From a virus, in IMG/VR virus record IMGVR_UViG_3300028883_000017, positions 1-42,890 of that record: 42,890 bases of DNA; one strand, 5' to 3'. Both the position numbers and the translations under genes were made by a program. How positions within the stretch are numbered: position 1 is the stretch's first letter; every line of letters begins with the position of its first letter. The notes beneath the pieces were generated by a model that had not been told where the DNA came from, searched no databases, and saw nothing but the letters and a program-made list of their open reading frames with translations. Of this stretch, positions 18,244 through 42,714 are shown one piece after another.

Positions 18244-18604
18244 AGATGACATGCTGGTCTTCGCCGACGGCGATCCGCGGATCAACAACGCGCTGAAAGC
18301 CTCCATCGCGATGATCAACCGCGCCCTGATCCACGTGTCCAACAAGTACGGCAGCCGCCTGCTCTGCTGGCAGTACGCCGAGGACGATCCGGCCGGCCTC
18401 TACTTCCTGGCCTTCGACAAGGACGGCGATCCGCTCAAGATCGTCCGCGCCATCGCCGAACGCGGCCACTTCGTCATCGAGGAGATGGAAGGCGCCTCGC
18501 TGCCGACCAGCGAGGATGCCGTCGAGGAGTTCGAGCGCCGCCGCCGGGCGGCTGGCGCCATCCTCGCCACACCCGACCCCCGCGACCGGGAGACAGAGCA
18601 GTGA
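18236..18604 (+). CDS. Early protein, unknown
   Basis: 122 residues from ATG 18,236. Alpha/beta protein (NALKASIAMINRALIHVSNK; GLYFLAFDKDGDPLKIVRAI) with a basic helical C-terminus (EEFERRRRAAGAI). No family recognised. It overlaps its neighbours by 8 and 4 bases. Confidence 0.65.
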   Translation: MPEDDMLVFADGDPRINNALKASIAMINRALIHVSNKYGSRLLCWQYAEDDPAGLYFLAFDKDGDPLKIVRAIAERGHFVIEEMEGASLPTSEDAVEEFERRRRAAGAILATPDPRDRETEQ

Positions 18605-19056
18605 CGCAGAGCGAGATGCTGAAGCTGATCCACGACGTCATCCGCAAGCACGAGAGTACCTGCGAGATGTGCTGGGGCGGGCGCGAGATCTACTGCCCCA
18701 CCTGCAACGGCGAGGCGTCGATCCCCTGCCCCGACTGCGGTGGCCGCGGTGGCGGCGATGTCATCGACAGCCCCACGGCCGAGCCGCGCTGGGTGGAGTG
18801 CGACCGCTGCCAGTCGCTCGGCTGGATCGATTGCACGAACCCCGCCTGCCAGAACGGACGCGTGCCCTGCACGCGCTGCGCGGCCACAGGCCTCGATCTG
18901 AGCGACGACGACCTGGAACGCGTCAACGCGGAACTCGCCGAACAGGGGATCGTCATCAGCCTGGACCGGCGCCGCCGCGACAAGGCCGGCCGCTACATCC
19001 TGAGCAACATCACCACCTTCGACCCCGATCAGCCCCTTCCGAAGATCGTCACCTGA
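18601..19056 (+). CDS. DnaJ-type zinc-finger protein
   Basis: 151 residues from GTG 18,601, overlapping the previous stop (GTGA). Between residues 20 and 100 it has six cysteine knuckles in the DnaJ cysteine-rich pattern: CEMCWGG, CPTCNGEA, CPDCGGRG, CDRCQSLG, CTNPACQNG and CTRCAATG. This should bind two or three zinc ions and fold like the DnaJ central domain. There is no J domain, so it is not a DnaK co-chaperone as such; it may hold an unfolded or host protein. The C-terminal 50 residues are charged and helical. It lies just before the recombination genes. Confidence 0.75.
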   Translation: MTQSEMLKLIHDVIRKHESTCEMCWGGREIYCPTCNGEASIPCPDCGGRGGGDVIDSPTAEPRWVECDRCQSLGWIDCTNPACQNGRVPCTRCAATGLDLSDDDLERVNAELAEQGIVISLDRRRRDKAGRYILSNITTFDPDQPLPKIVT

Positions 19057-19070
19057 ACAGGAGGAACCTC

Positions 19071-20090
19071 ATGCCGCTGACCGCCGAACAACTGCAGGCC
19101 CGCAAGCGGGGCCTCGGCGGCTCCGATGCCGCCGCCGTCCTCGGACTCTCGCCCTGGGCGAGCCCACTGGACGTCTACCTCGAGAAGGCCGACCCCGAGA
19201 CGCCGCCCACCGTCGAGACGGAGGCGATGTACTGGGGGAACGTCCTCGAAGACGTCATCACCCGCGAGTTCGCGAAACGCACCGGCCTCAAGGTCCGGCG
19301 CTCGAACGTCACCCACCGGCTCGACGGCACGCCGCTCATCGCGCACGTCGACCGGCTCATCGAAGGCGCCGTCGACGGCCACCGGGCGCTGCTGGAAGCC
19401 AAGGCCTCCAGCATCTGGAACCGCGACGAGTGGGGCGACGAGGGCACCGACCAGATCCCCAAGTACTACCTGATCCAGGTCCAGCACTACATGGCCGTCC
19501 TCGGCTTCCAGCTGGCCTTCGTCGCCGTCCTGCTCGGCGGCAACGACTTCCGCATCTACCGCGTGCCGGCCAACCAGAAGCTCATCGGCGACCTGGTTCA
19601 CCTGGAGCGCCGCTTCTGGGAACGGCACGTCGAGCGGCGGATCCCGCCGGACCCGCAGAGCCTCGCCGACCTGTACAAGCTCTGGCCGCACGACGACGGC
19701 CACACGGTCACCGTCGCCGGCGACTCGCCGGCCTTCCAGGCCGCGCAGCAGCTGGCGGTGCTGAAGGCCATCAAGTCCGGCCTGAAGGAGCCGATGGACA
19801 AGGCCGAAGAAACGATCAAGGCCGAGATGGGCTCGGGTGCCACGCTCCTGGGGCCCGGCGGCGAGACGCTGGCCACCTGGAAGAGCTACACGAGCCAGCG
19901 CCTAGACTCGAAGCGCCTAAAGGCCGACGAACCCGACCTCGCCAAGAAGTACACCCTCTCGACCGAGGCGCGGCGCTTCACCCTGAAGGTGAAGCCCAAG
20001 AAGCCGGCCGACATCATCGTGCAGGGCATGCCGACGGCCCACGACCCGAACAAGGAGGATCAGAACGATGACCAGCAGACCCAGCAGTAA
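19071..20090 (+). CDS. YqaJ-type viral recombinase / exonuclease
   Basis: 339 residues from ATG 19,071 with CAGGAGG six bases upstream; TAA stop. Family signs: GLGGSDAAAVLGLSPWASP near residue 14, YWGNVLEDVITREFAKRTG (the glutamate of the nuclease core), then DRLI, LLEAKASS (E-x-K) and QVQHYMAVLG. These are the conserved elements of the PD-(D/E)XK YqaJ/lambda-exonuclease fold. It should resect double-stranded DNA ends 5' to 3' to load the neighbouring annealing protein. The last 23 bases overlap the RecT gene, the classic pair. Confidence 0.9.
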   Translation: MPLTAEQLQARKRGLGGSDAAAVLGLSPWASPLDVYLEKADPETPPTVETEAMYWGNVLEDVITREFAKRTGLKVRRSNVTHRLDGTPLIAHVDRLIEGAVDGHRALLEAKASSIWNRDEWGDEGTDQIPKYYLIQVQHYMAVLGFQLAFVAVLLGGNDFRIYRVPANQKLIGDLVHLERRFWERHVERRIPPDPQSLADLYKLWPHDDGHTVTVAGDSPAFQAAQQLAVLKAIKSGLKEPMDKAEETIKAEMGSGATLLGPGGETLATWKSYTSQRLDSKRLKADEPDLAKKYTLSTEARRFTLKVKPKKPADIIVQGMPTAHDPNKEDQNDDQQTQQ

Positions 20091-21099
20091 GCAGCAGGAA
20101 CTGAAGCCGGGAAGCCAGGCGCCCCCCGCGGCGCCGCGCAGCGAGCCGAAGCCGCCCTCGCCCGAGAAGCAGGCGGCGCAGAAGGAGGCGGCCGTCGTCC
20201 AGCGCGAGATGCGGCCGGCGCCGGTGAGGACCATGGAGGAGGTGTTCCGCAAGAACATCAAGGTCTTCGAGGCCATGGTCCCGAGCCACATCGATGCGTC
20301 CAAGCTGATCCGCACGGCGCTGATCGAGATGCGGCGCAGCCCCAAACTGATGCAGTGCCGGCCGGCGTCGATCCTCGGCGGCGTGATGACCGCCGCGCAG
20401 CTGGGCCTCGAACTGGGCAGCCACCTCGGGCAGGCGTGGCTCATCCCCTTCAAGCAGGAGGCGGTCTTCATCGCCGGCTACCGGGGCATGGTGCAACTCG
20501 CCTACCGCTCGGGGCAGGTCCGCAACATCCACGCCGACCCGGTCTACGAGGCCGACACCTTCTCCTTCGCCTATGGCACCAACCCCCACCTGACCCACAC
20601 GCCGAGCGACCTGCCGCCGGGCGAACGCGGCGAGATCACCCACTTCTACGCCGTCGCCTCCCTGGCCAACGGTGGACACGCGTTCCGCGTCATGACCCGC
20701 GCCGAGGTCATGCAGGTCCGCGAGCGCTCGCCCGGCGCCCGCAAGCCCGACAGCCCCTGGAACCACCCGGTCGACTGGCTGGACATGGGCCGCAAGACGG
20801 TGATCCGCCGTCTGGCGAAGTACCTGCCGCAGTCGGTCGAGTGGCAGAAGGCGGTCGCCCTGGACGAACTGGCCGAGGCGGGCAAGGGCCAGGATCTGGC
20901 CAGCGCGATCTCCTGGGATGACCTGGAACTCACCCCCGACGAGCGCGAGGCCCTGGAGCCGGAGGGGCCGGCCGACGAGACGCAGACGGCGGGCGAGGAA
21001 GAGGACGGCGCGGCGAACGGGAGCCGCACCGATCAGGTCGCCAGCATGCTCGCCGGACGGGTCGTCGAGGGCGAGGTCGTCGAAGGCGAGGACGACTGA
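20068..21099 (+). CDS. recT: RecT-family single-strand annealing protein
   Basis: 343 residues, ATG 20,068 with AAGGAGG upstream. A 60-residue proline/lysine-rich N-terminus precedes the RecT domain: LIRTALIEMRRSPKLMQC, ILGGVMTAAQLGLELGSHLG, AWLIPFKQEAVFIAGYRGMV, then VDWLDMGRKTVIRRLAKYLP. The C-terminal 70 residues are acidic (ETQTAGEEEDGAANG). It promotes strand annealing after resection by the YqaJ exonuclease encoded just upstream, and probably generates concatemers for packaging. Confidence 0.93.
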   Translation: MTSRPSSKQQELKPGSQAPPAAPRSEPKPPSPEKQAAQKEAAVVQREMRPAPVRTMEEVFRKNIKVFEAMVPSHIDASKLIRTALIEMRRSPKLMQCRPASILGGVMTAAQLGLELGSHLGQAWLIPFKQEAVFIAGYRGMVQLAYRSGQVRNIHADPVYEADTFSFAYGTNPHLTHTPSDLPPGERGEITHFYAVASLANGGHAFRVMTRAEVMQVRERSPGARKPDSPWNHPVDWLDMGRKTVIRRLAKYLPQSVEWQKAVALDELAEAGKGQDLASAISWDDLELTPDEREALEPEGPADETQTAGEEEDGAANGSRTDQVASMLAGRVVEGEVVEGEDD

Positions 21100-26715: not shown

Positions 26716-27057
26716 ATGAGTCTCACACGCGACCACCGGTTGGCGATCAGCGCGGAGTGGAAAGAGGCCGCTTTTCACAAAGCTCCTCACAAACTCCCAA
26801 AAGAGTTTTCCCATTTTAGAGAACGGGCCAAGCAGCAGCAATCGCTTGCCAGAGTCGCCCGCCATATCCCAGCCCTCCTCGACGCGCTGGAGGAGGCGGA
26901 GAAGATGGCGAGATACGGCGCTGTGTGGCTCAAGGAAATGTCATCGGCTGACGGAAGCGGACACGCCGACCTGGGTAGGCGCATTGACGAAATGTTAGCT
27001 GATATCCGCGAGCAGTTCCCGGCCGACGGGCGCGAACGGAACGAGGAGCCGGCGTGA
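26716..27057 (+). CDS. Small helical protein, unknown
   Basis: 113 residues from ATG 26,716 with AGGAGGAGCC upstream. Basic at the start, then helical (IPALLDALEEAEKMARYGAV) and an acidic C-terminus. It overlaps the methyltransferase start by four bases (GTGA). Codons near 26,770-26,830 are AT-rich compared with the rest. No family recognised. Confidence 0.6.
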   Translation: MSLTRDHRLAISAEWKEAAFHKAPHKLPKEFSHFRERAKQQQSLARVARHIPALLDALEEAEKMARYGAVWLKEMSSADGSGHADLGRRIDEMLADIREQFPADGRERNEEPA

Positions 27058-27845
27058 CCTTCGGCAGCCTCTTCGCCGGGATCGGAGGAATGGATCTCGG
27101 ACTGGAGCGGGCAGGGATGCGGTGCCGCTGGCAAGTCGAGAACGACGACTACTGCCAGCGAGTCCTCGCCCGCCACTGGCCGGACGTCCCCCGCTACGGA
27201 GACATCCACGACTGCGGCAGGCACAACCTCGAAGCCGTTGACCTCATCTGCGGGGGGTTCCCCTGCCAGGACATCAGCGTGGCCGGGAAAGGAGAGGGAC
27301 TCGATGGAGAACGATCCGGTCTATGGTGGGAGTTTGCTCGAATCATTGGCGAGCTACGACCCCGCTACGTCCTCGTGGAGAACGTCCCAGCTCTCACTCG
27401 CCGGGGACTTGACCGAGTTCTCGGGGCCCTGGCCCAGGGCGGGTACGATGCGTCGTGGGATCATATACCGGCGGCAGCCGTTGGCGCCCCTCACCGCCGC
27501 GACCGGATCTTCCTTGTGGCCGACGCCGAAGGGCAGCCCGATCGGGCCGGACTACGCGAGGGCGAACCGCGACGGCAGCGGGGGCGACGATCTGGCGACG
27601 GCGGTGGCAAGGTTCCCAACGCCCAATGCCCGCGACTGGAGAAGCGGGAAGGGCCGCCAGGACAACGGGCACTCGCCGCAATTGCCGGAAACGATTGGTG
27701 GGCAGTTGAACCCGACGTGGGTCGAGTGGCTCATGGGGTTCCCGCTCGGGTGGACCGACTGCGAGGACTAGGCAACGCCGTCGTCCCTCAGGTCGCAGAG
27801 TTCATCGGACGGCTGATCGTGGAAGCAGACAGGAGGATGCTGTGA
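27054..27845 (+). CDS. DNA (cytosine-5) methyltransferase
   Basis: 263 residues from GTG 27,054. Motif I FAGIGGMDLGLERAG (7-21), motif IV GGFPCQDIS with catalytic Cys71, motif VI ENV (109-111), motif VIII GAPHRRDRIF (144-153) and motif X RGLGNAVVPQVAEFIG near 235-250 are all present, so it should be active. The region between VIII and IX (about 158-215), where the target-recognition domain sits, is short, arginine/glycine-rich and low in hydrophobics. There is no restriction enzyme nearby, so it is an orphan methylase, likely protecting phage DNA from host restriction. A second open frame overlaps it from 27,238 to 27,771. Confidence 0.92.
   Translation: MTFGSLFAGIGGMDLGLERAGMRCRWQVENDDYCQRVLARHWPDVPRYGDIHDCGRHNLEAVDLICGGFPCQDISVAGKGEGLDGERSGLWWEFARIIGELRPRYVLVENVPALTRRGLDRVLGALAQGGYDASWDHIPAAAVGAPHRRDRIFLVADAEGQPDRAGLREGEPRRQRGRRSGDGGGKVPNAQCPRLEKREGPPGQRALAAIAGNDWWAVEPDVGRVAHGVPARVDRLRGLGNAVVPQVAEFIGRLIVEADRRML
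27304..27771 (+). CDS. Nested overlapping frame inside the methyltransferase gene
   Basis: 155 residues from ATG 27,304 in the +1 frame relative to the methyltransferase, nine bases after AAGGAGAG; the frame is open from 27,238 (177 codons). The product contains WRTSQLSLAGDLTEFSGPWP, GTMRRGIIYRRQPLAPLT, LWPTPKGSPIG, FPTPNARDWRSG and ends LNPTWVEWLMGFPLGWTDCE. I recognise this arrangement, especially NPxWVEWLMGFPxGWTD, as recurrent in phage and prophage proteins usually called hypothetical or methylase-associated. The methyltransferase frame looks least constrained exactly where this frame looks most protein-like. Function unknown. Confidence 0.55.
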   Translation: MENDPVYGGSLLESLASYDPATSSWRTSQLSLAGDLTEFSGPWPRAGTMRRGIIYRRQPLAPLTAATGSSLWPTPKGSPIGPDYARANRDGSGGDDLATAVARFPTPNARDWRSGKGRQDNGHSPQLPETIGGQLNPTWVEWLMGFPLGWTDCED

Positions 27846-28274: not shown

Positions 28275-28873
28275 TGGCCAGAGCAAAGCGCCGGGAGCGG
28301 AAGAAGGCCGTGCGGGCCGACACCGCCGAGGCCCGCCAGCGGGCGGCCTCCGTCTACCTCGAGACGATCAGCGAGAAGCGGCCGGCCGGCAACTACGCGG
28401 CGGCGGCTCGCGTACTGGGCATCACGGCGGCCACCCTGAAGCGCTGGAGCAAACTGGACTGGTTCAAGCTCCAGGTCAAAGAACTGCAGAAGCAGGTGCG
28501 CGAAGCCGAGGCCCAGGATGTCGCCGAAGGCGGCGACGACGACGCGATCAACAGGATCCGTCGCACCATCCGGCTCCTCGCGCTCCGCGCCCAGACGGGT
28601 GCGGAGAACATCGCGGTCGCCGACATACCCCAGGCCATCAACAACCTGGCCACCAGCCTGAACAAGCTGGCCGGCGATCCCGAAACCTACGTCGAGCGGC
28701 TGGCCATGCTGCCCCGCGAGGTGCTGCTGCGCGAACTCGAACTGGCCGACCTCGAACTGGAGGAAGCCAGCACCTTCGGCGACGCGCAGAAGGCTCGCCT
28801 GCGCCACACCGAGGCGCTGGAGGGGATCGATCTGGAGGCCCTCGAGGAAGAGGCGAATGAGTACCGGGATTAG
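28274..28873 (+). CDS. terS: Small terminase subunit
   Basis: 199 residues from ATG 28,274, overlapping the previous stop. The N-terminus is very basic (RAKRRERKKAVRADTAEARQ), followed by a helix-turn-helix (NYAAAARVLGITAATLKRWS) that would recognise the packaging site. A long helical oligomerisation region (RRTIRLLALRAQTGAENIAV; LPREVLLRELELADLELEEA) and an acidic end follow. It precedes the large terminase with a 17-base overlap, which supports the call. Confidence 0.75.
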   Translation: MARAKRRERKKAVRADTAEARQRAASVYLETISEKRPAGNYAAAARVLGITAATLKRWSKLDWFKLQVKELQKQVREAEAQDVAEGGDDDAINRIRRTIRLLALRAQTGAENIAVADIPQAINNLATSLNKLAGDPETYVERLAMLPREVLLRELELADLELEEASTFGDAQKARLRHTEALEGIDLEALEEEANEYRD

Positions 28874-30359
28874 CAGACCGATCGGCGACCTACGCCTGCG
28901 GCCGGTGAAGGGCTACCCCCAGTGGACGCTGCCCCGCGAGCCGCTTCTCCGCGCCGTCGTCCTGCGCTACGCGATCGCGCACGCGACGCGCCGCCGGCAA
29001 CTCGAGTTGTACAAGCCCCATCCGAAGCAGCTGGAGGCCCACGCCCTGGGCCGCATTATGCGGGCGGTCGGCGTCTTCGGCGGCAACCGCACCGGGAAGT
29101 CCGTGCTGGCCGGCAGCGAGGTGTCCTACCATCTGACCGGCCGCTATCCCTACTGGTGGCCGGGGCGCCGCTACACCAGCCCCGTCACCTGGTGGGTGGC
29201 CAGCGAGTCGGCCCAGGTGACCCGCGACGGCGCCCAGCGGCTCCTGCTTGGGCCCTGGGACGAGATGGGCACGGGCCTGGTGCCCGCCGACTGCATCGGC
29301 GAAAAGATCGTCCACTCGGGCAGCGTGAAGCACTACCTGGACACGGTGAAGGTGAAGCATGTGTCGGGGAAGTTCTCAACCCTGAGCTTCCGCAGCTACG
29401 ACCAGGGCCGCAAGAAGTTCCAGTCGGCGAGCATCGACGGCGCGTGGCTGGACGAGGAGCCGCCGAAGGAGATCTTCAACGAGTGTCTGATGCGCGTCTA
29501 CGACCGCGGCGGCTACCTCCTGCTGGCCTTCACCCCGCTGTCCGGCATGACCGAGGTCTGCCTGATGTTCCTCGGCCGGCAGAAGCCGAAGAGCTTCGGC
29601 TCTGTCACGATGAGTTGGGCCGACAACATCCACCTGCCGGACTCCATGCGCCTGGAGATGATCGATGCGATGCTGCCCTACGAGCGGGAGGCCCGCGAGA
29701 AGGGGATCCCGGTCATGGGCAAGGGCCGCGTCTACACGACGCCCGAGAGCGTGCTGCGCGTCCAGCCCTTCAACATCCCCAGCCACTGGCCCCGCGGCCG
29801 CACGCTCGACTTCGGCTGGGACCACCCGACGGCCGCCCTGCTCGGAGCGAAGGATCCGAACACGAGCGTCGTCTACATCTACTGGACCTACAAGCTGACC
29901 GAGCAGCTGCCCGACGTCCACGCCCGCGCCATCCTGGCGGCCGACGACTTCGGCGACCGGATCCCCACCTGGGCCGACCCCTCGGGCTTGGCCACGAACG
30001 TCGAAGACGGCCGGAAGCTCTTCCAGATCTACGCCGACGAGGGCCTGCACTGCATGCCGGCGAACAACGAGGTCTACGCGGGCCTCGTCCGCACCCACCA
30101 GATGATGGCCCGCGGCCAGCTGAAGGTCTTCGCGACGTGCGAGGACTGGTTCGACGAGTACCGCCTCTACCACCGCGACGAGAAGGGGCCGGTGAAGATC
30201 AATGACGACCTGATGGACGACACCCGGTATCTGACCGCGCACCTCGGCGAGTTCACGGTGCCGCTTGACCTGGGCGGCGGCAGCCCGCACAGTCCCTTCA
30301 GCGGCGGGAAGAAGAAGCCGACGGGGCGCGTGGACGACGGCATGGGCGGCTGGGGGTGA
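28857..30359 (+). CDS. terL: Large terminase subunit (packaging ATPase-nuclease)
   Basis: 500 residues from ATG 28,857. Walker A is GGNRTGKS (75-82), Walker B WLDEE (197-201), followed by the coupling segment LLLAFTPLSG. The nuclease domain begins with TLDFGWDHPTA, whose aspartate is the first metal ligand; DLMDDTRY carries the C-terminal acidic pair. It forms the pentameric motor on the portal and cuts concatemers. Unusually, it is in the early rightward block, opposite to portal and capsid. Headful packaging is suggested by the circular assembly, but not shown. Confidence 0.93.
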   Translation: MSTGISRPIGDLRLRPVKGYPQWTLPREPLLRAVVLRYAIAHATRRRQLELYKPHPKQLEAHALGRIMRAVGVFGGNRTGKSVLAGSEVSYHLTGRYPYWWPGRRYTSPVTWWVASESAQVTRDGAQRLLLGPWDEMGTGLVPADCIGEKIVHSGSVKHYLDTVKVKHVSGKFSTLSFRSYDQGRKKFQSASIDGAWLDEEPPKEIFNECLMRVYDRGGYLLLAFTPLSGMTEVCLMFLGRQKPKSFGSVTMSWADNIHLPDSMRLEMIDAMLPYEREAREKGIPVMGKGRVYTTPESVLRVQPFNIPSHWPRGRTLDFGWDHPTAALLGAKDPNTSVVYIYWTYKLTEQLPDVHARAILAADDFGDRIPTWADPSGLATNVEDGRKLFQIYADEGLHCMPANNEVYAGLVRTHQMMARGQLKVFATCEDWFDEYRLYHRDEKGPVKINDDLMDDTRYLTAHLGEFTVPLDLGGGSPHSPFSGGKKKPTGRVDDGMGGWG

Positions 30360-33315: not shown

Positions 33316-36300
33316 CTACCTCCTGGGGCGCCGGCTCGGCCGGCGGCTGCGACTGCGCGGCGGCGGCGCCTGGTCTGCTTCCCTCTCCGCTTCCCGCTCC
33401 TCGAGCATACTACGCCCGCGACCGAACCACCAGTAGTACGGCTTGCCGATGATGGGGACCATTTGAACCGAGTGCAGCTTGTCGATCTCGATCGGCTCGC
33501 CCTTCTTCCACTGGCGCTCGATGTACAGATAGTCCTTGTGCCACTTGCTGCCCAGGCTGAAGTGCGGGGGCATGACCAGTTTCGCGCCCGCCTCCAGGGG
33601 GCCGTAGCGTCGGATCTGCCAGGCGAAGAACCGGCTGACGCCGACCAGTCGCGCAAGCTGGTCCTGCATCAGTTCGGTGAAGTGAATCGGTCGGCCCATG
33701 ATCAGATCCTTGATGACGTCGGCCGTCGCGTTCATCAGCGTGAAGGCGATCGTCAGGCGGATGAGATTCTGGAATCCCTCGATACGGTCAGCGCGACTCT
33801 CCGAGCCCATCAGGTCAAAGCACTCGCGGCGGAAGGCGTCGAACTGCTTCAGGGTGAAGGTCTGAAGCATGTACGAGATCCGACCGTTCGGGTGGTTCTG
33901 GTAGTACTCGGGCATCTCGCTCTCGGCCAGCGGCTGCCAGTCGAGTAGCTTGTTGGCCAGGAAGTACTTGATGTCGGGCGTCACCTTGCCGCTGGCCAGT
34001 TGCGGGATGAGCCGCTGCCAGTCCTCACCGAAGTAGCGGGCGAGATCGCGCTGGAGCCGCCGGCTGGCGCGGCCGCGCCGGGCCTCGCGCTGGTAACGCG
34101 CCAGGGTGGAATTGATCAACGACTCCTTGCCCAGCACGTCAATGTGCTTCAGGAAGATGGTTGTGAACAGCGCGTCGAGCGCCCAGCCAGCCTTGTCCGG
34201 CCGCTCGAACTCCGCACTGATCCTCTCCAGCCCCAGATCTTTGCGGCTGATGTCTAGCTTGCGACCGACGGTCTTCCCGACCGCCTTTGACGTCTCGTAG
34301 AACCCGGATTCGTAGAGGCTCCAGGCCAGATCGCCGAACTGGGTGATCCCGCTGGTATGGCTGCCCATCGTGGCCATGTAGCCGAGCGTTTTCAGCCAGC
34401 GGACCGCGTTGGAACTCGGCTCGTGGCGCAGCAGCGCAGCACAGATGTCCTTCACCTCGCGCTGCTGGGCGGCCATGATCTTGCCCTCATCCATGAGCTG
34501 GCGCACGAAGTGGCCGATCGACTCCTCGCTGTTGGCGCCCTTGCCGAAGAACTTGTTGCGGGCGATGGCCCTCTCCATCTCCTCGATGTGTCGGATCAGC
34601 GCCGTCTCGGGGTCGTAGTAGAACTTGCGGATCGATTCGGTGACACGGGGAATCGTCCGACGCTTCGCGGCCCGCGGTCGGCCCGTACCCGGCGGCACCC
34701 GGCCGGCAAGGAAGTTGTTGACGATCTGGTTGCGCTCCTCGTCGGTGATGTCGCGGTCCTTCGTCTCCAGCAGCCGCGCCCGCTTCTTGTTGATTAGCTT
34801 CTGGAGTTGGCCGTAGGCCGTTGGATCGGCATCGTAGAGGAACGTCATGAGTCCCTCGTAGTCCTTCACGCGCCTCGGATAGTAGTAGGAGACGGTCCCT
34901 TCCATCTTGCCGCCGCTCTCGATGTAGCGCTGCCGGATGTTTTCCAGGACCGCCTCATTATCCTTGAGAGCGGAAAGCCCCTCTTCGCCGACGATCTCGT
35001 AGGCGGTATTCGGGTCCGCGTTCTGAAGCGCTTCGTGCAACAGCTCGTAGTCTTCGGCCGACCGCTTCCGCACGCGCTTCAGCGTCTCAAGCCAGGGCAG
35101 CACCTTGGCCGTCGTCTCCAGGGTCTCGAGGCGATAGCCGATAGTGTAACCGCGCACGGCCCGCTCGACGGCGGGGTCTACCCGCCGCGCACGACTGGAG
35201 AGGGGGACCAAGAGCTTGCGACCTAGGCTGGCCATGCGATTCTTCTTGGACGCCCTTTTGGCCCGCTTGACCGCCTCCCGCGCCTCGCGGCTGGCGTGGT
35301 CGATCTCGGCATCCTGCGGCTGGCGGCGGCGCACCTGGAACTTGGAGAAGCCGGCGTCCATTGCGCTCCGCTTCAGGTCGGGCGTGACGTCCAGGGCGTG
35401 ATACTTCTCGCCGACCTTCATGCCCCCAATCCCCTTTTCCAGTTCGGCATCGGCGACGATTACGACTTCGTCGCTTCCGAGCCTCTCGGAGGCGTCTTCT
35501 GCGCCAGTGAACCAGAGATCCAGCTCCTCCCGGTCGGTGATGTTGTCCTTGTGCAGTTCCCACTTGTCCTTGAGCCCCGGCCCGCGCCGTGTCCGGTGCC
35601 AGATGCTCATCCGGTACTCCTCGGCGGCGGCATCCAGGGCCCCGGCTGCCGACGGGTAATCGTCGTAGTAGAGTCCTTGGCGATAGATGTCTGCCAGCCT
35701 GTCTTCCAGGCTGCGGTGGCCTCCCAGTTCCGTCTCGCCCGGCTTGGCGCCGAAGCGCTTGCCCAGCTTGCTCATCACGTTCCGCAGATTCACATCGTAG
35801 AGTTTCTTGGGCCACCCGGCCTCGAAGTGCGTGCCCTCGGGCGGGTTCCAACTCAGCGGGAAGTCCAGGCCGGCGGCCTCATGCTCGGCCGCTTGCTCGA
35901 CGATCTGCTTGGCCAGCGAGGCGCCGATCTGGCCGCGCAGCTGGGCCTCGGTCGCGTAGCCGTTGCTCTCCCAGACGGGCTCGCCGTAGTCGCGCTCGCT
36001 GTTGTTCCACAGTTCGACGGCGTACTTCTTCTCGCCTTTCGACGTGACCGCGGTGCTGACGACCTGGACCTCGTCGACGAGGCCGGCCAGCGCCTCGCTG
36101 TAGCGGCGCACCTGCTGCTCGCCGGTCGTCCAGGCGACCTTGTCGTAGCCGCCCTCGGCGGCCATCCGCAGGATCCGCTTGGCGACCAGTTCGATCCACT
36201 TGCTGCTGGACGCCCAGGGGACGGGCTCGGCAGAATCCGCCCGGAGGATGGTGTTGAGATGTAGGGCGATCTCCCCGCGAGCCCCCCCCGACGCCAGCTC

Positions 36301-39300
36301 CTTGAAGGCGGCCTTCACCTTGTCGTCCGACCAGACCTGAGTCCGCAGGCTCTTCCACTCGCCCCCGCCCTTGGGGTCGGGGTTGAACTCGATGTGCTTG
36401 AGCCTGGGTCCCTCCGTGGCCCGGTGAATGCGGAACATATCCTCGGTCAGGCGCTCGGGCAGGATGCCGTACTTGGCCTGCCGCAGTTCCGTCGACCAGT
36501 CGCTCTGGATCTCGTCGACCAGCAGCACCTTCTTGCCGTCAGGGTCCGCGAAGTCCTTCACGCGGACATGGGCAACGGGGTTCTCTTCGCCCGGCTGCGA
36601 CCAGTGGCTCGAGCGGAAAGCCCGCCCTTCCCACTTGGGCAGCATGATCAGGATCTCGCGGTAGTTCTCGCCGGTCTCCGGGCCGCCCGTGCTGTAGCGG
36701 CCGTAGCTGGTGGGGGTGTACTCCTCGCGGTTGATTTCCCCGCTCCACAGGAACTGCTTCGCCTCTTCCATCGTCTTGAAGCCGGGCGAGAGGCCGCCGA
36801 TATAGCCGCCGATGTAGTCGGCCGTGAAGCGGCGATTCGGATCCGAGAAGGATGCCCCGTGGTCCGTGATCTGGTACTCGACCGCGTGGTATCGACCGTC
36901 TCCACCCCTGTACTCGAAGCGTGTCGAGATGTCGGTGATCGCTCTGATCTCTTTCTCGATCAGCGATTCGAGGTAGAGGCGGTTCACTTGCTCAGGCGTC
37001 ACGCTCAGGCGGGACGGGTCCATGTTGAAGGCCCCGCCCGTCACCCTCATCTGCTGGATGGCTTTTTCCTTCGCATCCTTCATCAGCTTCTTTCTGTTCT
37101 CGTCCGACTCACGAGAGGCCTTGAGTCTCTCCCAGGTGGCCTCCTCACGATCGGCCAGTTCGTGAGGCAGGAAGATGTGGACCTTGGCGCCACGGTGCGG
37201 CATGTCCAGCGTGACCCAGCGGTGGCCAGGAATCTCATCGGTCGGCGTATCGCCTGGGACTCCCTCGCTCCTGGCCAGATCACGCAGCGTGCGGTGCGGG
37301 GCGATTGGCTGTCTCTTCACATGCTGCGTTTCGCCCCGCCGCCACTCGTCCAGTGCCAGCTGCTCGTTGCGCCGCGCCAGTTCGTCCAGCACCTGGGCCC
37401 GCGTCAGCTTCTCGTTCGCCCGCTCCTCGAACCAGGTGTCCATGCCCGTCCACAGCAGTTCGTCCTTGACGCCGCTGTGCTGCAGGAGCCGCTTCTGGAG
37501 GGCCGCGCCGATCTCCGTCTTGCCCATGGGCAGGCCGGTCAGGGCCCGGCGGGTCGGGCTGTAGAAGCCCAGCTCGTCGATGTCATCGTAGCGGCGGCCC
37601 TGCTTCGGCCGTACCTGGAAGGAGCGCTTGCGCGGGCCGCTCGTCGCATAGGCCGCGCTCGTCGGGTCCATCTTCCTGAGCCGGCGCTGCACGCGCTCGG
37701 GGATCGGGCCGCTGGGATCCGCGCCGCGATCGGCCACGTCGATCAGCGCCCCGCCCTTGGCCGAGCAGGTGGAGCAGCGGCCCGTGACACAGCACTGCTG
37801 GCCGAACAGGCCCTCGTACTCCTTGCCCATCCGCATGTAGCGATTCAGGTAGCCGAGCTTTTTCAGCTGGCGCTCCAGGCGCGGGGTCATCACGCCGATG
37901 TCCCAGAGCCGCTCGTAGGACAGGCCCACCTCTCCGTGGCCGATCGGGTAGCGCGGCAGCCGCTTCAGCCGGCGGGCCTCGGCCTGCAGTTCCCTGCGCT
38001 CGGCGCCCTCGGCCGCCTGGGCCCGGCGCAGCAGATCCTTGACCCGCTCGTGCAGTTCGGGATCGGCCAGCTTGTAGACCCGGTTGCGCTCGGCGATCCG
38101 CAGCGCCATGTCCATGGCCTCTTCCATGGGCACCTGGTGCCGCTCGGCGATCCGCCGGGCCATCGGCTCGATGGACTTGGCGGTCGTGCCAGCGAAGCCC
38201 GGCGTGTCGATGTGGAGCGGCGTCTCGAGGATCGCCCGCGGCGGCAGGCCCGTGGCGGCGATGTACTCGAGCGTGGTGGCGATCGACTGAGGGTGCGACA
38301 GCAGCCGGCCGAACTGGCCGAACTCGTCGGTGATCAGGCGCATCACGGGCTCCAGGCCCGCCTCGCGCAGGCGGTGGTAGCCCTTCGTGCGGAGCCGGCA
38401 TTCCCAGGGCTCGAAGTCGATCCCGCCCGAGTGCTGGACAAGCAGTCCGTCGCCGAACTCGCGCTGGATCTCGCGCAGCAGATCGAAGGGGACGTCGGCG
38501 TAGTAGCCGGTGGTGACCACCGACCACTTCTGGCCGGCGGCCCGGCCGAGGCCCTTGCGCTCGGCCTCGCGGACGAAGGCCTGCCAGGCGCCCTCGTTGC
38601 CGTCGAGCGGCAGGATCTCCTGCATCCAGTCGCCGGCCTGATTGTTGCGGATGAACGGCGAGCGCCGGTATCTGGCCACGGTCTTCGGACGAAGGCTCTG
38701 AGCGTACTTGGCCGCCACCTCGGCGTCAGGCACCTGGGGGCTCATTGCGCTCTGCGGAACGTAGAGGTTCGGGTACTCGCCCGCCGCGTGCAGTTCGCGG
38801 TACAGGCGGCGGCGGTCGGCGGTCGACATCTGGCTGAAGGCGTCCTTCATGGCGGCCAGCCGCGGCTTGTCGCTGCGCTTGCCGTCCGCGCTGATCTTGG
38901 GATCCACATCCAGCAGGCGGAAGCCCTTCACGCCCAGTTCGCCGGCCAGCTGCCGCAGGCGGCGGCGGGCGTCCATGTCGCCCTTGCGTCCGCGCTCGAT
39001 CAGTTTCGAGAAGGGGCTGGCGCCGCTCAGGGCGGCCGTGTCGGCTTCCTTGTAGCAGGCGTCCCCGTGGCAGCTGGTGAGCAGGCGCACGGCGTCGGCC
39101 GGCGCCTCGCCGGCCTCCACGGCCGAGAGGATCGCTGCATGACGGCCGCAGCCGCTGGAGATCGCCATCAGGGGCTGGCCCTCGAGCTTTGCGCTGCCCA
39201 TCCGCAGATCGATCCAGCGGTTCCGATCCTTCTCGGGCACGCCCAGGAGATGATCCATCCAGGCCTCGAGGGCCACCTGGTCGTGGGCCTTGGTGCCGAA

Positions 39301-42300
39301 GCGGGAGAAGTCGCGCTGGGGATAGTGGATCCGGCCGGTCAGGCCGCGGCCCGAGCCGCCGACGATCTCGTACTCGACGCTCCTGAGCGGCCCCTTCTTT
39401 CCCCGGAGGGTGCGGGGTTTCACGCGCAGCGAGTAGCTCTCGAACAGTTCGCCCTGGGCGGGCACCGGCAGCCGGGAGATGTCTGGCTGGGCCCGAAAAG
39501 GAGCCGCGCCCTCTCCTACCCCCGCCCGAGTGCCAGTGGCACTGCCTGCGGTTCGGTCGCCCCGAGGGGCGAGTGGAGAGGGCGCTGCGCCCATGTCCGC
39601 GATTTCGTTACTAGGATACCCCCAGCGGCCGGCTCTGTCAACGGGGATCCGCTCGCCGGCCTGCCGGTACAGATCCTGAATCTTCTTCGGGATCTTGGCG
39701 CCGCGGATCTTGCGGATGCCGCCGATCAGGGCCCGCAGGGTGTCGCGGGCCTGGGCGAACAGCGTGCGGATGGGCCCGGCCGCCTCGTGCATCTTCTCGC
39801 TGAAGAAGAAGGCCGTGGCCTCCTCGGCGAACAGTTCCTCCTCCGACAGGTTCTGGGGGTTGTCGTGGGACTCGTAGTAGTCGTGGAACGGGGCCTGCTG
39901 CTCCTCGGTGAGCCGATACCACCAGTCGTGACTGAACTCGTGGACGACCGACTGGGCGTCGTGGCCGGCCATCAGCCGGACGGCGGTCCTCAGGTTGCCG
40001 GCGGCGTGGTCGGCGTAGGTGACGCCCGGCACCTCGACGTCCTCGGGACTCAGGTCGCCTAGGCCCCAGTCCTCCAGGCCCTGGCGGGTGACCTTCATCA
40101 CCGTCTGGCTGATCTCCAGGGAGGTCGTCTCGTCGAAGGTCGGATCGATCTCGATCAGCCGGCGGGCCAGGGCGGCGGCGCCCGCGTCGGTGTCGCCGGC
40201 GGCCAGCGCCCGCTCGACCTCCCGGCGGGCCCGCCCTCCCAGGTCCGGCCGGAAGGGGGCCGCCTGGCCACGGGCACCCCGCTCCGGGGGGTTTACCCAG
40301 ACCTCGATGGGGGTCCGGGTGGGTCGGCGCTCCGCGGGCCTCTCAGGCGCTCTCTCGGACGCACGAGATTCAGTTAGGGGCGCCTCTCTGCCCCTGACAT
40401 CCTCTACCCGGCCGGCCCGCGCCGGGGGCCCCTCGCCCAGGATGGCCGACTCGGGCTGGCCCGGCGGCAGCATCCGCTCAGGCGCCGGCCGGCGCCGGCC
40501 GAGGATCGACCAGGTGCCGTCCTCGTTCGCGTGGAGGCTCATGTCGGCGTACTGGCCGCCCTCGCGGGCGGCGTCCAGGGCCCGCTGGGCGTCGGCCTGC
40601 CGCGGGTAGGTCTTGCCCGTGACCGACTCCCAGACCTCGGGCTCGCCGCGCACGCCCCGGTAGCCGGCGTTCTCGAGGAAGTCCTCCCAGACCTCGCGGC
40701 CGAAGCGGCGCTGCGCCTCGCCCTTGACCCGGCCCAGGCCCTCCTCCCAGTCGAGGCCCTCCAGGTCATCGTAGAGCGCGTCGGGGAGCCCCTCGTCCTC
40801 GGCCATCAGCTGCCGGCTGCGGGCGTAGGCCTCCAGGGCGCCGGCCACGTTAGCCGCCTCGCCCGCCCACTCGGCCTTGTCGGCGGCCAGCACCGGCTCG
40901 ACCTCGGCCTGCCGCACGCGGGTCGGTGGGCGGGTCCGGCGGCGTTCCTGATCACTGAGCAGCTGGGCCGTCTCCAGGCCTCGCCCCCGGCGGGCGCCGG
41001 GGCCTGGCGGGGGGCCCTCGGCCGCGGGCAGGGCTGGGCGCGGTCGCGGCTGCGTTCTGGGCGAGGGAGCCTCGCCGGGCGCGTAGAGGAGCCGCTCCGT
41101 CCAGGGGGTGGGGTGCTGGCGGCGAGCCGCCTCGCGCAGGCCGGGGTAGGACTTCTCGATCTGGCCGGCGGCGCCGTGCATCGTGAACAGGGCGTTGATC
41201 CCGTACTGGAAGATCCGGTCGGCGAGCTGGTCGGGATCCACGTCGTAGACCAGCCCCTCGCCGGGCTTCTGGCCATGGAACAGGTCGAGCAGGGCGCTCA
41301 CGCCGGCCCAGCGGGCCAGCCACTCGCCCCCGCGGCGCATGAGGTCCGCACCGATCCGGCCGGGGATCAGGGCCGTGCCCGTGGCGAAGGCGAGCCCCAT
41401 CTCGGCGCCCTCGAGGCGGGCCTGACCCGCCACCTTCAGCGCATCGGTCAGGCTCGTCTGGGCCAGCACGTCGCCCGTGCGGGCCAGTCCGATGGCCTCG
41501 GCCAGATGGCTGGCCTCGGTGGCCGCCATCTTGGCCCACCGTCTCACGGACGAGCGGGGCGAGTAGAGCAGGTCGGCGGCCTTCAGCTGCGTGCGTCCGA
41601 GGAGTTTCTTCACCCAGGGCAGGCGCCGGGCCAGCAGCACCCGTTCGGCCTTGGCGATCTTCGAGGGGCCGGCCACGAAGCCGGCCAGCGCTCCCAGGCC
41701 GACGGCGACGCGCTCGGCCGTGTTCTCGGCCTCGGGCCAGGCGCCGGGCCCGTAGGCGGCCTCCAGGGCGCTCTTGGGCAGGCCGAGCAGGGCCTCGTTG
41801 GCCGCTGCCAGTCCGGCGGCGCCGACGAGGTTCGCGGGCAGGGGCCCGCCGGCGCCCGTCGCGGCGAGGCTGGCCTGCATGCCCCTCTTCAGCCCCGCGC
41901 CGATGGCACCGCCGCCGCCGGCCGCCGCCTGCGCCTGGTACTCCTCGGCCGTCTTGCCGGGGGTGAGCCCCCCCAGGATGCGCTGCATGGCGCTGGGGCC
42001 CGCCTCCATGGCCGTGGGCATCGGCGCGGCGGCCAGCGTTTCACGGGAAACGTCGGGCGGCGGCGCCGCCGCGTAGTCGGGATCCTCGAAGCCCAGGTCG
42101 TCGGTCGCCGGGTGGACGAGCCACAGGTACAGGCGCGTCAGTTCGTCGGGCGGCAGGTCGGCCACCATCTCGGGCTCGATGCCCAGGACGGCCAGTCCGG
42201 TCTGGAGCGCCTCCCAGAGCGTCGCCGAGCCGTGTTCCTCGGCCACCTTCATCAGGCTGGCCAGTTCGCCCTCGCTCCACTGGCCGAGCAGTTCGGCGAG

Positions 42301-42714
42301 CTGGGCCTCGTGCTGGTCGGCGATCGTCGCGTCGACCGGGACGTCGGCGGTGGTCGGCGGCGCCGCCAACTGGCCATCGAGCAGGGGGCCGGCCGGCGCG
42401 GTGTACAGGTCGGGGGCGCCGCCCGCATCGACGGCAGGGCCGGAAGGAAAGGTCGGCGCAGCTGCGACCGATCCCTGCTCGTCGCCGCCCGCCGCGGTCA
42501 GGAGCCCGCCGCGAGCGCCCGGCACAGCTGCGGGGGCGCCCCCCAAGGGGTAGGCCTCGATGAACTCGCTCCAGGCGGCCTCGGCGTTGTCCTTGCCCAC
42601 CTGGGGCAGCACGACCTCGGCGAAGTAGTCGCGCTGCATCTGGACCCGATCCTTGGAGCCGAGACGCTGGTAGTCGTCGCTCTGGAGAATCTCACGCCAC
42701 GGGAGCGCCGCCAC
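33316..42714 (-). CDS. Giant polyvalent ejection protein with zincin motif (T7 gp16-like slot)
   Basis: 3132 residues, about 22% of the genome; GTG 42,714 shares its first base with the preceding TAG and GGGAGG lies upstream. Residues 1-60 are a small helical domain seen at the start of phage polyvalent proteins. About 290-530 is alanine/glycine-rich and hydrophobic, suited to membrane insertion. HEFSH at 925-929 with LFAEEA near 961-966 is a zinc metallopeptidase signature. About 1110-1650 is a cysteine-rich module (C1189, C1215, C1220, CC1641-1642, C1646, C1649). FYSPTRRAL at 1717 begins an LPD23-like domain; near 2019-2200 lies the polyvalent segment with DEIQSDW and VAWTTGEQQ. The C-terminal 600 residues (SEMPEYYQNHPNGRISYML) match ejection-protein tails, ending in a basic R/S/P stretch. 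Confidence 0.85.
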   Translation of the reverse strand: MAALPWREILQSDDYQRLGSKDRVQMQRDYFAEVVLPQVGKDNAEAAWSEFIEAYPLGGAPAAVPGARGGLLTAAGGDEQGSVAAAPTFPSGPAVDAGGAPDLYTAPAGPLLDGQLAAPPTTADVPVDATIADQHEAQLAELLGQWSEGELASLMKVAEEHGSATLWEALQTGLAVLGIEPEMVADLPPDELTRLYLWLVHPATDDLGFEDPDYAAAPPPDVSRETLAAAPMPTAMEAGPSAMQRILGGLTPGKTAEEYQAQAAAGGGGAIGAGLKRGMQASLAATGAGGPLPANLVGAAGLAAANEALLGLPKSALEAAYGPGAWPEAENTAERVAVGLGALAGFVAGPSKIAKAERVLLARRLPWVKKLLGRTQLKAADLLYSPRSSVRRWAKMAATEASHLAEAIGLARTGDVLAQTSLTDALKVAGQARLEGAEMGLAFATGTALIPGRIGADLMRRGGEWLARWAGVSALLDLFHGQKPGEGLVYDVDPDQLADRIFQYGINALFTMHGAAGQIEKSYPGLREAARRQHPTPWTERLLYAPGEAPSPRTQPRPRPALPAAEGPPPGPGARRGRGLETAQLLSDQERRRTRPPTRVRQAEVEPVLAADKAEWAGEAANVAGALEAYARSRQLMAEDEGLPDALYDDLEGLDWEEGLGRVKGEAQRRFGREVWEDFLENAGYRGVRGEPEVWESVTGKTYPRQADAQRALDAAREGGQYADMSLHANEDGTWSILGRRRPAPERMLPPGQPESAILGEGPPARAGRVEDVRGREAPLTESRASERAPERPAERRPTRTPIEVWVNPPERGARGQAAPFRPDLGGRARREVERALAAGDTDAGAAALARRLIEIDPTFDETTSLEISQTVMKVTRQGLEDWGLGDLSPEDVEVPGVTYADHAAGNLRTAVRLMAGHDAQSVVHEFSHDWWYRLTEEQQAPFHDYYESHDNPQNLSEEELFAEEATAFFFSEKMHEAAGPIRTLFAQARDTLRALIGGIRKIRGAKIPKKIQDLYRQAGERIPVDRAGRWGYPSNEIADMGAAPSPLAPRGDRTAGSATGTRAGVGEGAAPFRAQPDISRLPVPAQGELFESYSLRVKPRTLRGKKGPLRSVEYEIVGGSGRGLTGRIHYPQRDFSRFGTKAHDQVALEAWMDHLLGVPEKDRNRWIDLRMGSAKLEGQPLMAISSGCGRHAAILSAVEAGEAPADAVRLLTSCHGDACYKEADTAALSGASPFSKLIERGRKGDMDARRRLRQLAGELGVKGFRLLDVDPKISADGKRSDKPRLAAMKDAFSQMSTADRRRLYRELHAAGEYPNLYVPQSAMSPQVPDAEVAAKYAQSLRPKTVARYRRSPFIRNNQAGDWMQEILPLDGNEGAWQAFVREAERKGLGRAAGQKWSVVTTGYYADVPFDLLREIQREFGDGLLVQHSGGIDFEPWECRLRTKGYHRLREAGLEPVMRLITDEFGQFGRLLSHPQSIATTLEYIAATGLPPRAILETPLHIDTPGFAGTTAKSIEPMARRIAERHQVPMEEAMDMALRIAERNRVYKLADPELHERVKDLLRRAQAAEGAERRELQAEARRLKRLPRYPIGHGEVGLSYERLWDIGVMTPRLERQLKKLGYLNRYMRMGKEYEGLFGQQCCVTGRCSTCSAKGGALIDVADRGADPSGPIPERVQRRLRKMDPTSAAYATSGPRKRSFQVRPKQGRRYDDIDELGFYSPTRRALTGLPMGKTEIGAALQKRLLQHSGVKDELLWTGMDTWFEERANEKLTRAQVLDELARRNEQLALDEWRRGETQHVKRQPIAPHRTLRDLARSEGVPGDTPTDEIPGHRWVTLDMPHRGAKVHIFLPHELADREEATWERLKASRESDENRKKLMKDAKEKAIQQMRVTGGAFNMDPSRLSVTPEQVNRLYLESLIEKEIRAITDISTRFEYRGGDGRYHAVEYQITDHGASFSDPNRRFTADYIGGYIGGLSPGFKTMEEAKQFLWSGEINREEYTPTSYGRYSTGGPETGENYREILIMLPKWEGRAFRSSHWSQPGEENPVAHVRVKDFADPDGKKVLLVDEIQSDWSTELRQAKYGILPERLTEDMFRIHRATEGPRLKHIEFNPDPKGGGEWKSLRTQVWSDDKVKAAFKELASGGARGEIALHLNTILRADSAEPVPWASSSKWIELVAKRILRMAAEGGYDKVAWTTGEQQVRRYSEALAGLVDEVQVVSTAVTSKGEKKYAVELWNNSERDYGEPVWESNGYATEAQLRGQIGASLAKQIVEQAAEHEAAGLDFPLSWNPPEGTHFEAGWPKKLYDVNLRNVMSKLGKRFGAKPGETELGGHRSLEDRLADIYRQGLYYDDYPSAAGALDAAAEEYRMSIWHRTRRGPGLKDKWELHKDNITDREELDLWFTGAEDASERLGSDEVVIVADAELEKGIGGMKVGEKYHALDVTPDLKRSAMDAGFSKFQVRRRQPQDAEIDHASREAREAVKRAKRASKKNRMASLGRKLLVPLSSRARRVDPAVERAVRGYTIGYRLETLETTAKVLPWLETLKRVRKRSAEDYELLHEALQNADPNTAYEIVGEEGLSALKDNEAVLENIRQRYIESGGKMEGTVSYYYPRRVKDYEGLMTFLYDADPTAYGQLQKLINKKRARLLETKDRDITDEERNQIVNNFLAGRVPPGTGRPRAAKRRTIPRVTESIRKFYYDPETALIRHIEEMERAIARNKFFGKGANSEESIGHFVRQLMDEGKIMAAQQREVKDICAALLRHEPSSNAVRWLKTLGYMATMGSHTSGITQFGDLAWSLYESGFYETSKAVGKTVGRKLDISRKDLGLERISAEFERPDKAGWALDALFTTIFLKHIDVLGKESLINSTLARYQREARRGRASRRLQRDLARYFGEDWQRLIPQLASGKVTPDIKYFLANKLLDWQPLAESEMPEYYQNHPNGRISYMLQTFTLKQFDAFRRECFDLMGSESRADRIEGFQNLIRLTIAFTLMNATADVIKDLIMGRPIHFTELMQDQLARLVGVSRFFAWQIRRYGPLEAGAKLVMPPHFSLGSKWHKDYLYIERQWKKGEPIEIDKLHSVQMVPIIGKPYYWWFGRGRSMLEEREAEREADQAPPPRSRSRRPSRRPRR
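39506..39585. repeat. Three-way-junction palindrome inside the giant gene
   Basis: Outer arms GCGCCCTCTCC (39,506-39,516) and GGAGAGGGCGC (39,575-39,585) enclose two perfect hairpins: AGTGCC-AGT-GGCACT (39,529-39,543) and TCGCCCC-GA-GGGGCGA (39,557-39,572). The segment is in frame and encodes a flexible linker (about residues 1044-1070) after the zincin domain. It resembles a small palindromic insertion element or a structured RNA that slows translation between domains. Confidence 0.7.

Follow-up and report, generated by a model that had tools for sequence, protein, structure and literature searches.

A +1-frame gene nested in a phage C5-cytosine methyltransferase gene probably encodes the second subunit of the enzyme

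Two overlapping reading frames lie on the plus strand of a 42,890-nucleotide stretch of viral DNA (positions 1 to 42,890 of the IMG/VR record IMGVR_UViG_3300028883_000017), which as a whole is called the window below. Frame 0 encodes a methylase chain, alpha, and within it the +1 frame is open from a TTG at 27238 to a stop codon at 27769-27771, a run of 177 codons. The limits of this open frame and the motifs that alpha and the second chain, beta, form at the same bases (GGFPCQDIS in alpha with GGSPARTS in beta, and EPDVGRVAHGVP with NPTWVEWLMGFP) agree with the original prediction, so that a second frame nested in the methylase gene is confirmed. The features of the locus are as follows.

27054..27845, plus strand: alpha, C5-cytosine methyltransferase catalytic subunit (frame 0; 263 aa; GTG start; motifs I-VIII and X)
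27238..27303, plus strand: upstream extension of the +1 frame (TTG start without a ribosome-binding site; covers the catalytic PCQ of alpha)
27261..27269, plus strand: alpha motif IV, PCQ, with the catalytic Cys71 (invariant in the family alignment)
27288..27294, plus strand: AAAGGAG, likely ribosome-binding site of beta, 9 nt before ATG 27304
27304..27771, plus strand: beta, nested +1-frame gene, predicted TRD/motif IX subunit (155 aa from the ATG; stop codon included in the coordinates)
27342..27513, plus strand: doubly coding segment 1, alpha motifs VI-VIII over the N-terminal part of beta (SYDPATSSWRTSQ...FSGPWPRAGTMRRG..YRRQPLAPLT)
27514..27696, plus strand: TRD-like segment of beta (LWPTP..., FPTPNARDWRSG), where the alpha frame is an Arg/Gly-rich linker
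27697..27759, plus strand: beta motif IX GGQLNPTWVEWLMGFPLGWTD over alpha EPDVGRVAHGVPARVDR (synonymous suppression in both frames; hhalign)
27771..27791, plus strand: alpha motif X, GNAVVPQ, whose first base is the last base of the beta stop codon

Alpha is recognized as a C5-cytosine methyltransferase by its match to PF00145 together with the catalytic motifs PCQ, ENV and RxR. The PF00145 match (2.2e-47, Pfam profile search) is restricted to residues 2-161, that is, through motif VIII, and the Pfam, NCBIfam and listed PADLOC methylase profiles all end at or just past this motif, unlike PHROG 363, the best match (3.2e-85, residues 2-260), which reaches motif X. The AlphaFold model of alpha is confident at residues 1-160 and about 232-263, the end that carries motif X, and disordered at residues 162-228, and a Foldseek search with this model gave M.HhaI as the top match (E 3.7e-16, rmsd 1.5 over 161 columns). 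Alpha by itself is thus predicted to be without a folded small domain, the segment between motifs VIII and X being modelled as disordered. The GTG start of alpha shares its bases with the stop codon of the upstream ORF (GTGA, 27054-27057), which suggests translational coupling. A RecE-like exonuclease, a RecT-like annealing protein and the terminase large subunit are encoded at 18516-21099 and 28857-30359, and the methylase gene therefore sits between the recombination and packaging genes of a tailed phage. Elsewhere in the window, 33316-42714 on the minus strand forms one open frame of 3132 codons. A weak tblastn match to a second methylase at the left edge of the window was rejected as an Arg-rich, low-complexity match.

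Relatives of beta are widespread, and a tblastn search with beta matched 279 phage records. IMG/VR loci were fetched independently with alpha or with beta and then compared. Of the 80 viral loci that the methylase protein retrieved, 79 have a beta match in the +1 frame, which in 73 lies at a single overlapping place; alpha overlapped beta in 80 of 80 viral loci retrieved with beta. The same overlap, in the same +1 register, was found in 80 of 80 bacterial and archaeal genome-contig loci (prophage included) fetched with beta. The earlier view of beta as a recurrent stand-alone phage protein is contradicted by these two complete sets; a stand-alone beta was found in neither the viral nor the bacterial collection, and only a split type of actinophage, described below, overlaps partially. 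As judged from these sequences, the nested arrangement is common to hundreds of phage and prophage loci. Some records annotate one of the two frames only, and in Microcystis phage Mwe-JY08 a piece of the beta frame is listed as a hypothetical protein. PHROG 1008, which beta matches at 1.5e-30 ('DNA methyltransferase'), and PHROG 363 are listed as separate families, without a note that one nests in the other. A search of E. coli DNA for relatives of the Salmonella phage copy returned prophage copies, none of them identified as EcoHK31I. One of the E. coli loci (PCP07014, L261:3001-3762), adjoining an integrase, has decayed: it is annotated as a pseudogene, interrupted by an internal stop, and a stop in the beta frame lies close by. 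In E. coli PT62, within a prophage recognized by flanking terminase genes, a second, more distant C5-methylase (L262:43-1029) adjoins a nested-type one; its +1 frame is open for 307 codons against 123 expected, a length that none of 1000 shuffles reached, and the beta profile matches it at 2.8e-11. To judge from this second methylase, C5-methylases outside the family studied here may also be dual-coded.

The distribution of motifs over the two frames is not the same in all relatives. Most loci, the window included, have the nested layout with motif IX in beta and motif X in alpha (129 viral and 70 genomic loci by a strict pattern), and the motif IX pattern in nested loci is present in beta and absent from alpha in nearly all of them. 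In Streptomyces phage Lilbooboo and Mycobacterium phage Catdawg alpha ends past motif VIII and a +1 ORF holds the TRD, IX and X; Arthrobacter phage Leona and Mycobacterium phage Maminiaina have the same split layout by eye. Both IX and X lie in alpha in Gordonia phages Baddon and Neville, Mycobacterium phages Phasih and Silvy, Arthrobacter phage 1191A and Rhodococcus phage ReT1v-2, and in these phages the +1 frame still matches the N-terminal part of the beta profile. Their +1 frame is open beyond chance in Baddon (p 0.003) and 1191A (p 0.03); the others, with GC-rich genes, are not clear. In six actinophage loci (L254, L255, L256, L257, L260 and L002) LPTP-type modules occur in the +1 frame, and in L255 and L257 the alpha frame of that gene has such modules as well.

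Profile searches with beta gave no match in Pfam or NCBIfam, and no PDB match was found by sequence, profile search included; phmmer matches to kelch proteins were dismissed, as they span 20 residues. A profile built from 62 betas, compared by hhalign, matched the region past motif VIII of single-chain actinophage methylases (prob 95.6, E 1.2e-8) and the beta of the split type (E 3e-17), and gave no match to its own alpha family. The match to the single-chain TRD/motif IX region covers profile positions 92-182, and by this profile alignment the C-terminal half of beta is homologous to that part of the single-chain enzymes. The motif IX sequence of beta is LNPTWVEWLMGFPLGWTD, and its LNPTWVEWLMGFPLGW is also similar to the canonical motif IX of M.HhaI, L-x-P-x(5)-[LV]-M-G-[FY]-P. 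Since the TRD-like segment is very variable across the family, its identity as a TRD is based on position together with the profile match. The AlphaFold model of beta alone is poor (pLDDT 60.6), as would be expected if beta folds solely on alpha. Taken as sequence evidence, these observations point to beta being very probably the missing DNA-recognition subunit of the methylase. It has to be asked whether beta is instead a separate regulator, for example one that inhibits the methylase or host restriction, encoded in the shared gene but staying outside the enzyme. Its N-terminal part is conserved even where motif IX lies in alpha, so that beta may do more than supply this motif; however, the absence of IX from alpha and its presence in beta in nearly every nested locus, and the profile match to the TRD/IX region of single-chain methylases, make a separate regulator improbable.

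The beginning of beta can be approached from the synonymous variation of alpha. A column scan of 136 loci gave alpha-synonymous codon diversity relative to expectation of 0.98 at residues 1-60, 0.89 at 61-96, 0.66 at 97-160 (p 2e-12), 0.19 at 216-234 in the motif IX stretch and 0.90 past residue 238; for the alpha-query loci only, the same five segments gave 1.00, 0.92, 0.78, 0.22 and 0.95. The suppression starts sharply at alpha codon 97, and this onset of strong constraint falls downstream of ATG 27304. Twelve relatives have a beta frame that is not open upstream of residue 1, and in six of them (L012, L025, L084, L086, L132 and L133; L025 and L086 most clearly) a purine-rich stretch precedes a start at residue 23/24. 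Beta is most likely translated by internal initiation at ATG 27304, which we consider the best reading of these sequences; a start at TTG 27238, which has no ribosome-binding site, is possible. The upstream extension (27238..27303) is probably not translated here, since synonymous suppression over it is weak, about 0.89 against 0.98. We also considered +1 ribosomal frameshifting from alpha, by which a fused methylase would be made instead of an internally initiated beta. In the split actinophage type such a switch past motif VIII would restore a canonical chain of motifs I-X, but in the nested type the fused product would be without motif X. Moreover, constraint on the +1 frame reaches back 60 codons or more from the point where motif VIII ends, and a frameshift product would have no use for such constraint. 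The several relatives with stops upstream and a purine-rich stretch ahead of a start at residue 23/24 also speak against frameshifting, which is very unlikely compared with internal initiation.

For the window alone, the open +1 frame has a p of about 0.016-0.03 under synonymous shuffling; a single ORF of this kind is only mildly surprising in DNA of 68% GC, and the evidence at the level of the family is decisive. In 56 non-redundant alpha-query loci, stops were counted between motif IV and the point where the overlap ends, with alpha codons shuffled synonymously within each gene. The +1 frame contained 4 stops where 218.2 were expected and was fully open in 53 of the 56 loci against 1.6 expected, whereas the +2 frame (578 stops vs 573 expected) and the antisense frames fitted expectation. 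Reciprocally, from motif VIII to the end of beta the alpha frame had 0 stops against 188 expected under beta-synonymous shuffling. Over 46 independent pairs, four-fold sites with an identical alpha residue differed at a rate of 0.51 before the overlap, 0.31 over motifs IV-VIII and 0.24 over VIII-IX (third-position Wilcoxon p 3e-9). Beta-synonymous diversity over motif IX is about 0.5 of expectation (0.48 in beta-query loci), and because alpha- and beta-synonymous diversity are both reduced there, both readings are constrained over this motif. In close pairs, past motif VIII, either the third codon position of beta varies most or the third position of alpha is clearly suppressed (in the pair L144/L152, 0.43, 0.27 and 0.19 at alpha positions 1, 2 and 3), which indicates that this segment is read mainly as beta. 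Purifying selection acts on both frames, and as the nearest relatives of the window are at most 57% identical in beta, this holds for the family rather than for the window copy. The original prediction of a true dual-coding gene, which named homologues of the nested product, stop-free relatives and suppressed synonymous sites as its checks, is borne out in the family: the homologues exist in the phage records and in the viral and genomic loci, the +1 frame is nearly free of stops, and suppression in the overlap is strong.

An open +1 frame could also be a by-product of GC-rich DNA and conserved alpha motifs, which would make a chance ORF seem conserved. The window by itself, with a p of about 0.02-0.03 and 68% GC, leaves some room for this explanation, but the family-wide depletion of stops specific to the +1 frame refutes it at the family level, and neither the synonymous suppression at identical alpha residues nor the third base of beta being most variable past motif VIII in close pairs agrees with it; we find it hardly credible. 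An RNA or DNA element, such as a structure or a binding site, as the source of the suppression would suit the almost invariant nucleotides over motif IX, yet the stop depletion is frame-specific and the codon-position pattern shifts to the beta frame past motif VIII, and its probability is close to negligible.

A gene of comparable layout has been described in bacteria, as Lee, Kam and Shaw reportedly found in 1995 that the gene for the large subunit of M.EcoHK31I contains, in another frame, that for the small subunit (176 aa). The large subunit of M.EcoHK31I holds motifs I-VIII and X and the small subunit motif IX, while in M.AquI motifs IX-X are both in the small subunit (PMC3404938). Work on targeted methylation has also employed M.EcoHK31I, as a naturally split methylase (PMC3439449). 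The window shares with M.EcoHK31I (YGGCCR) the two-polypeptide layout, with motifs I-VIII and X in the large chain, IX in the small chain only, and the small gene nested in another frame, and is by this layout a further case of the M.EcoHK31I type. The two differ in that M.EcoHK31I belongs to a restriction-modification system, whereas the window gene lies in a phage beside the terminase gene, and in that the TRD of M.EcoHK31I is assigned to the large subunit, whereas the TRD-like segment of the window is in beta. No companion restriction endonuclease was recognized among the few neighbours in the window or among the 10 ORFs flanking the gene in bacterial loci. M.AquI (CYCGRG) is likewise split past motif VIII and has the motif distribution of the actinophage split type (Lilbooboo, Catdawg, Leona); its motif X is in the small subunit, whereas that of the window is in alpha (27771-27791), and the window is not of the M.AquI type. 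The ShiLan domain is another instance of a phage methylase gene with a second protein in a different frame, in this case a hidden out-of-frame HNH gene, a mobile insertion coding for an endonuclease (PMC11855218). In the window, by contrast, the overlap spans motifs of the enzyme itself, and the second protein does not belong to the HNH type. A hidden gene of the HNH or intein type was rejected for the window, with no HNH match in Pfam, PHROGs or NCBIfam and an overlap that spans core methylase motifs. We found no prior description of nested methylase genes in phages in the literature, where our coverage of subscription papers was poor.

In a tree of the I-VIII domain, split and single-chain layouts interleave in one actinophage clade (100/96), single-chain 1191A is sister to split Leona (100/97), and the IMG/VR locus L082 is split elsewhere in the tree. 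Well-supported branches require the split label to have changed at least 4 times, in a small tree whose bootstrap is unsettled, and on this basis the recognition modules have probably switched frame several times. It is possible, and we propose it tentatively, that dual coding extends throughout a large clade of phage and prophage methylases, selection having fixed both frames at the same bases, and that the TRD, IX and X moved between the frames several times. If this is true, the effect of a frameshifting indel would be no more than a transfer of the recognition module between the subunits, by which specificity might be remodelled without loss of the enzyme. Overlapping frames selected at the same bases are seldom as clear-cut as in this family, where a single-chain homologue tells, segment by segment, in which frame the ancestral reading lies.

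We consider it very likely that the locus encodes a two-subunit C5-cytosine methyltransferase, alpha plus nested beta, laid out like M.EcoHK31I. Alpha would supply the large SAM-binding and catalytic domain with motifs I-VIII and X, and beta, started internally at ATG 27304 behind AAAGGAG, would supply the target-recognition segment and motif IX and dock on alpha so that the DNA-binding cleft is rebuilt. The phage would then probably methylate its own DNA against host restriction. We infer the translation of beta, the formation of the heterodimer, a specificity set by beta and the anti-restriction benefit from the layout and conservation of the two frames. The suggestion that beta is an undescribed methylase partner or an anti-restriction factor stands in part: the TRD/IX match favours a partner, but the arrangement is already known from M.EcoHK31I, and nothing beyond methylation itself points to an anti-restriction factor. 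Many C5-methylases of phages and prophages appear to be annotated as one protein, while the active enzyme is probably a heterodimer with its second half in another frame, and such a hidden half would matter whenever these methylases are expressed, assigned a specificity or knocked out.
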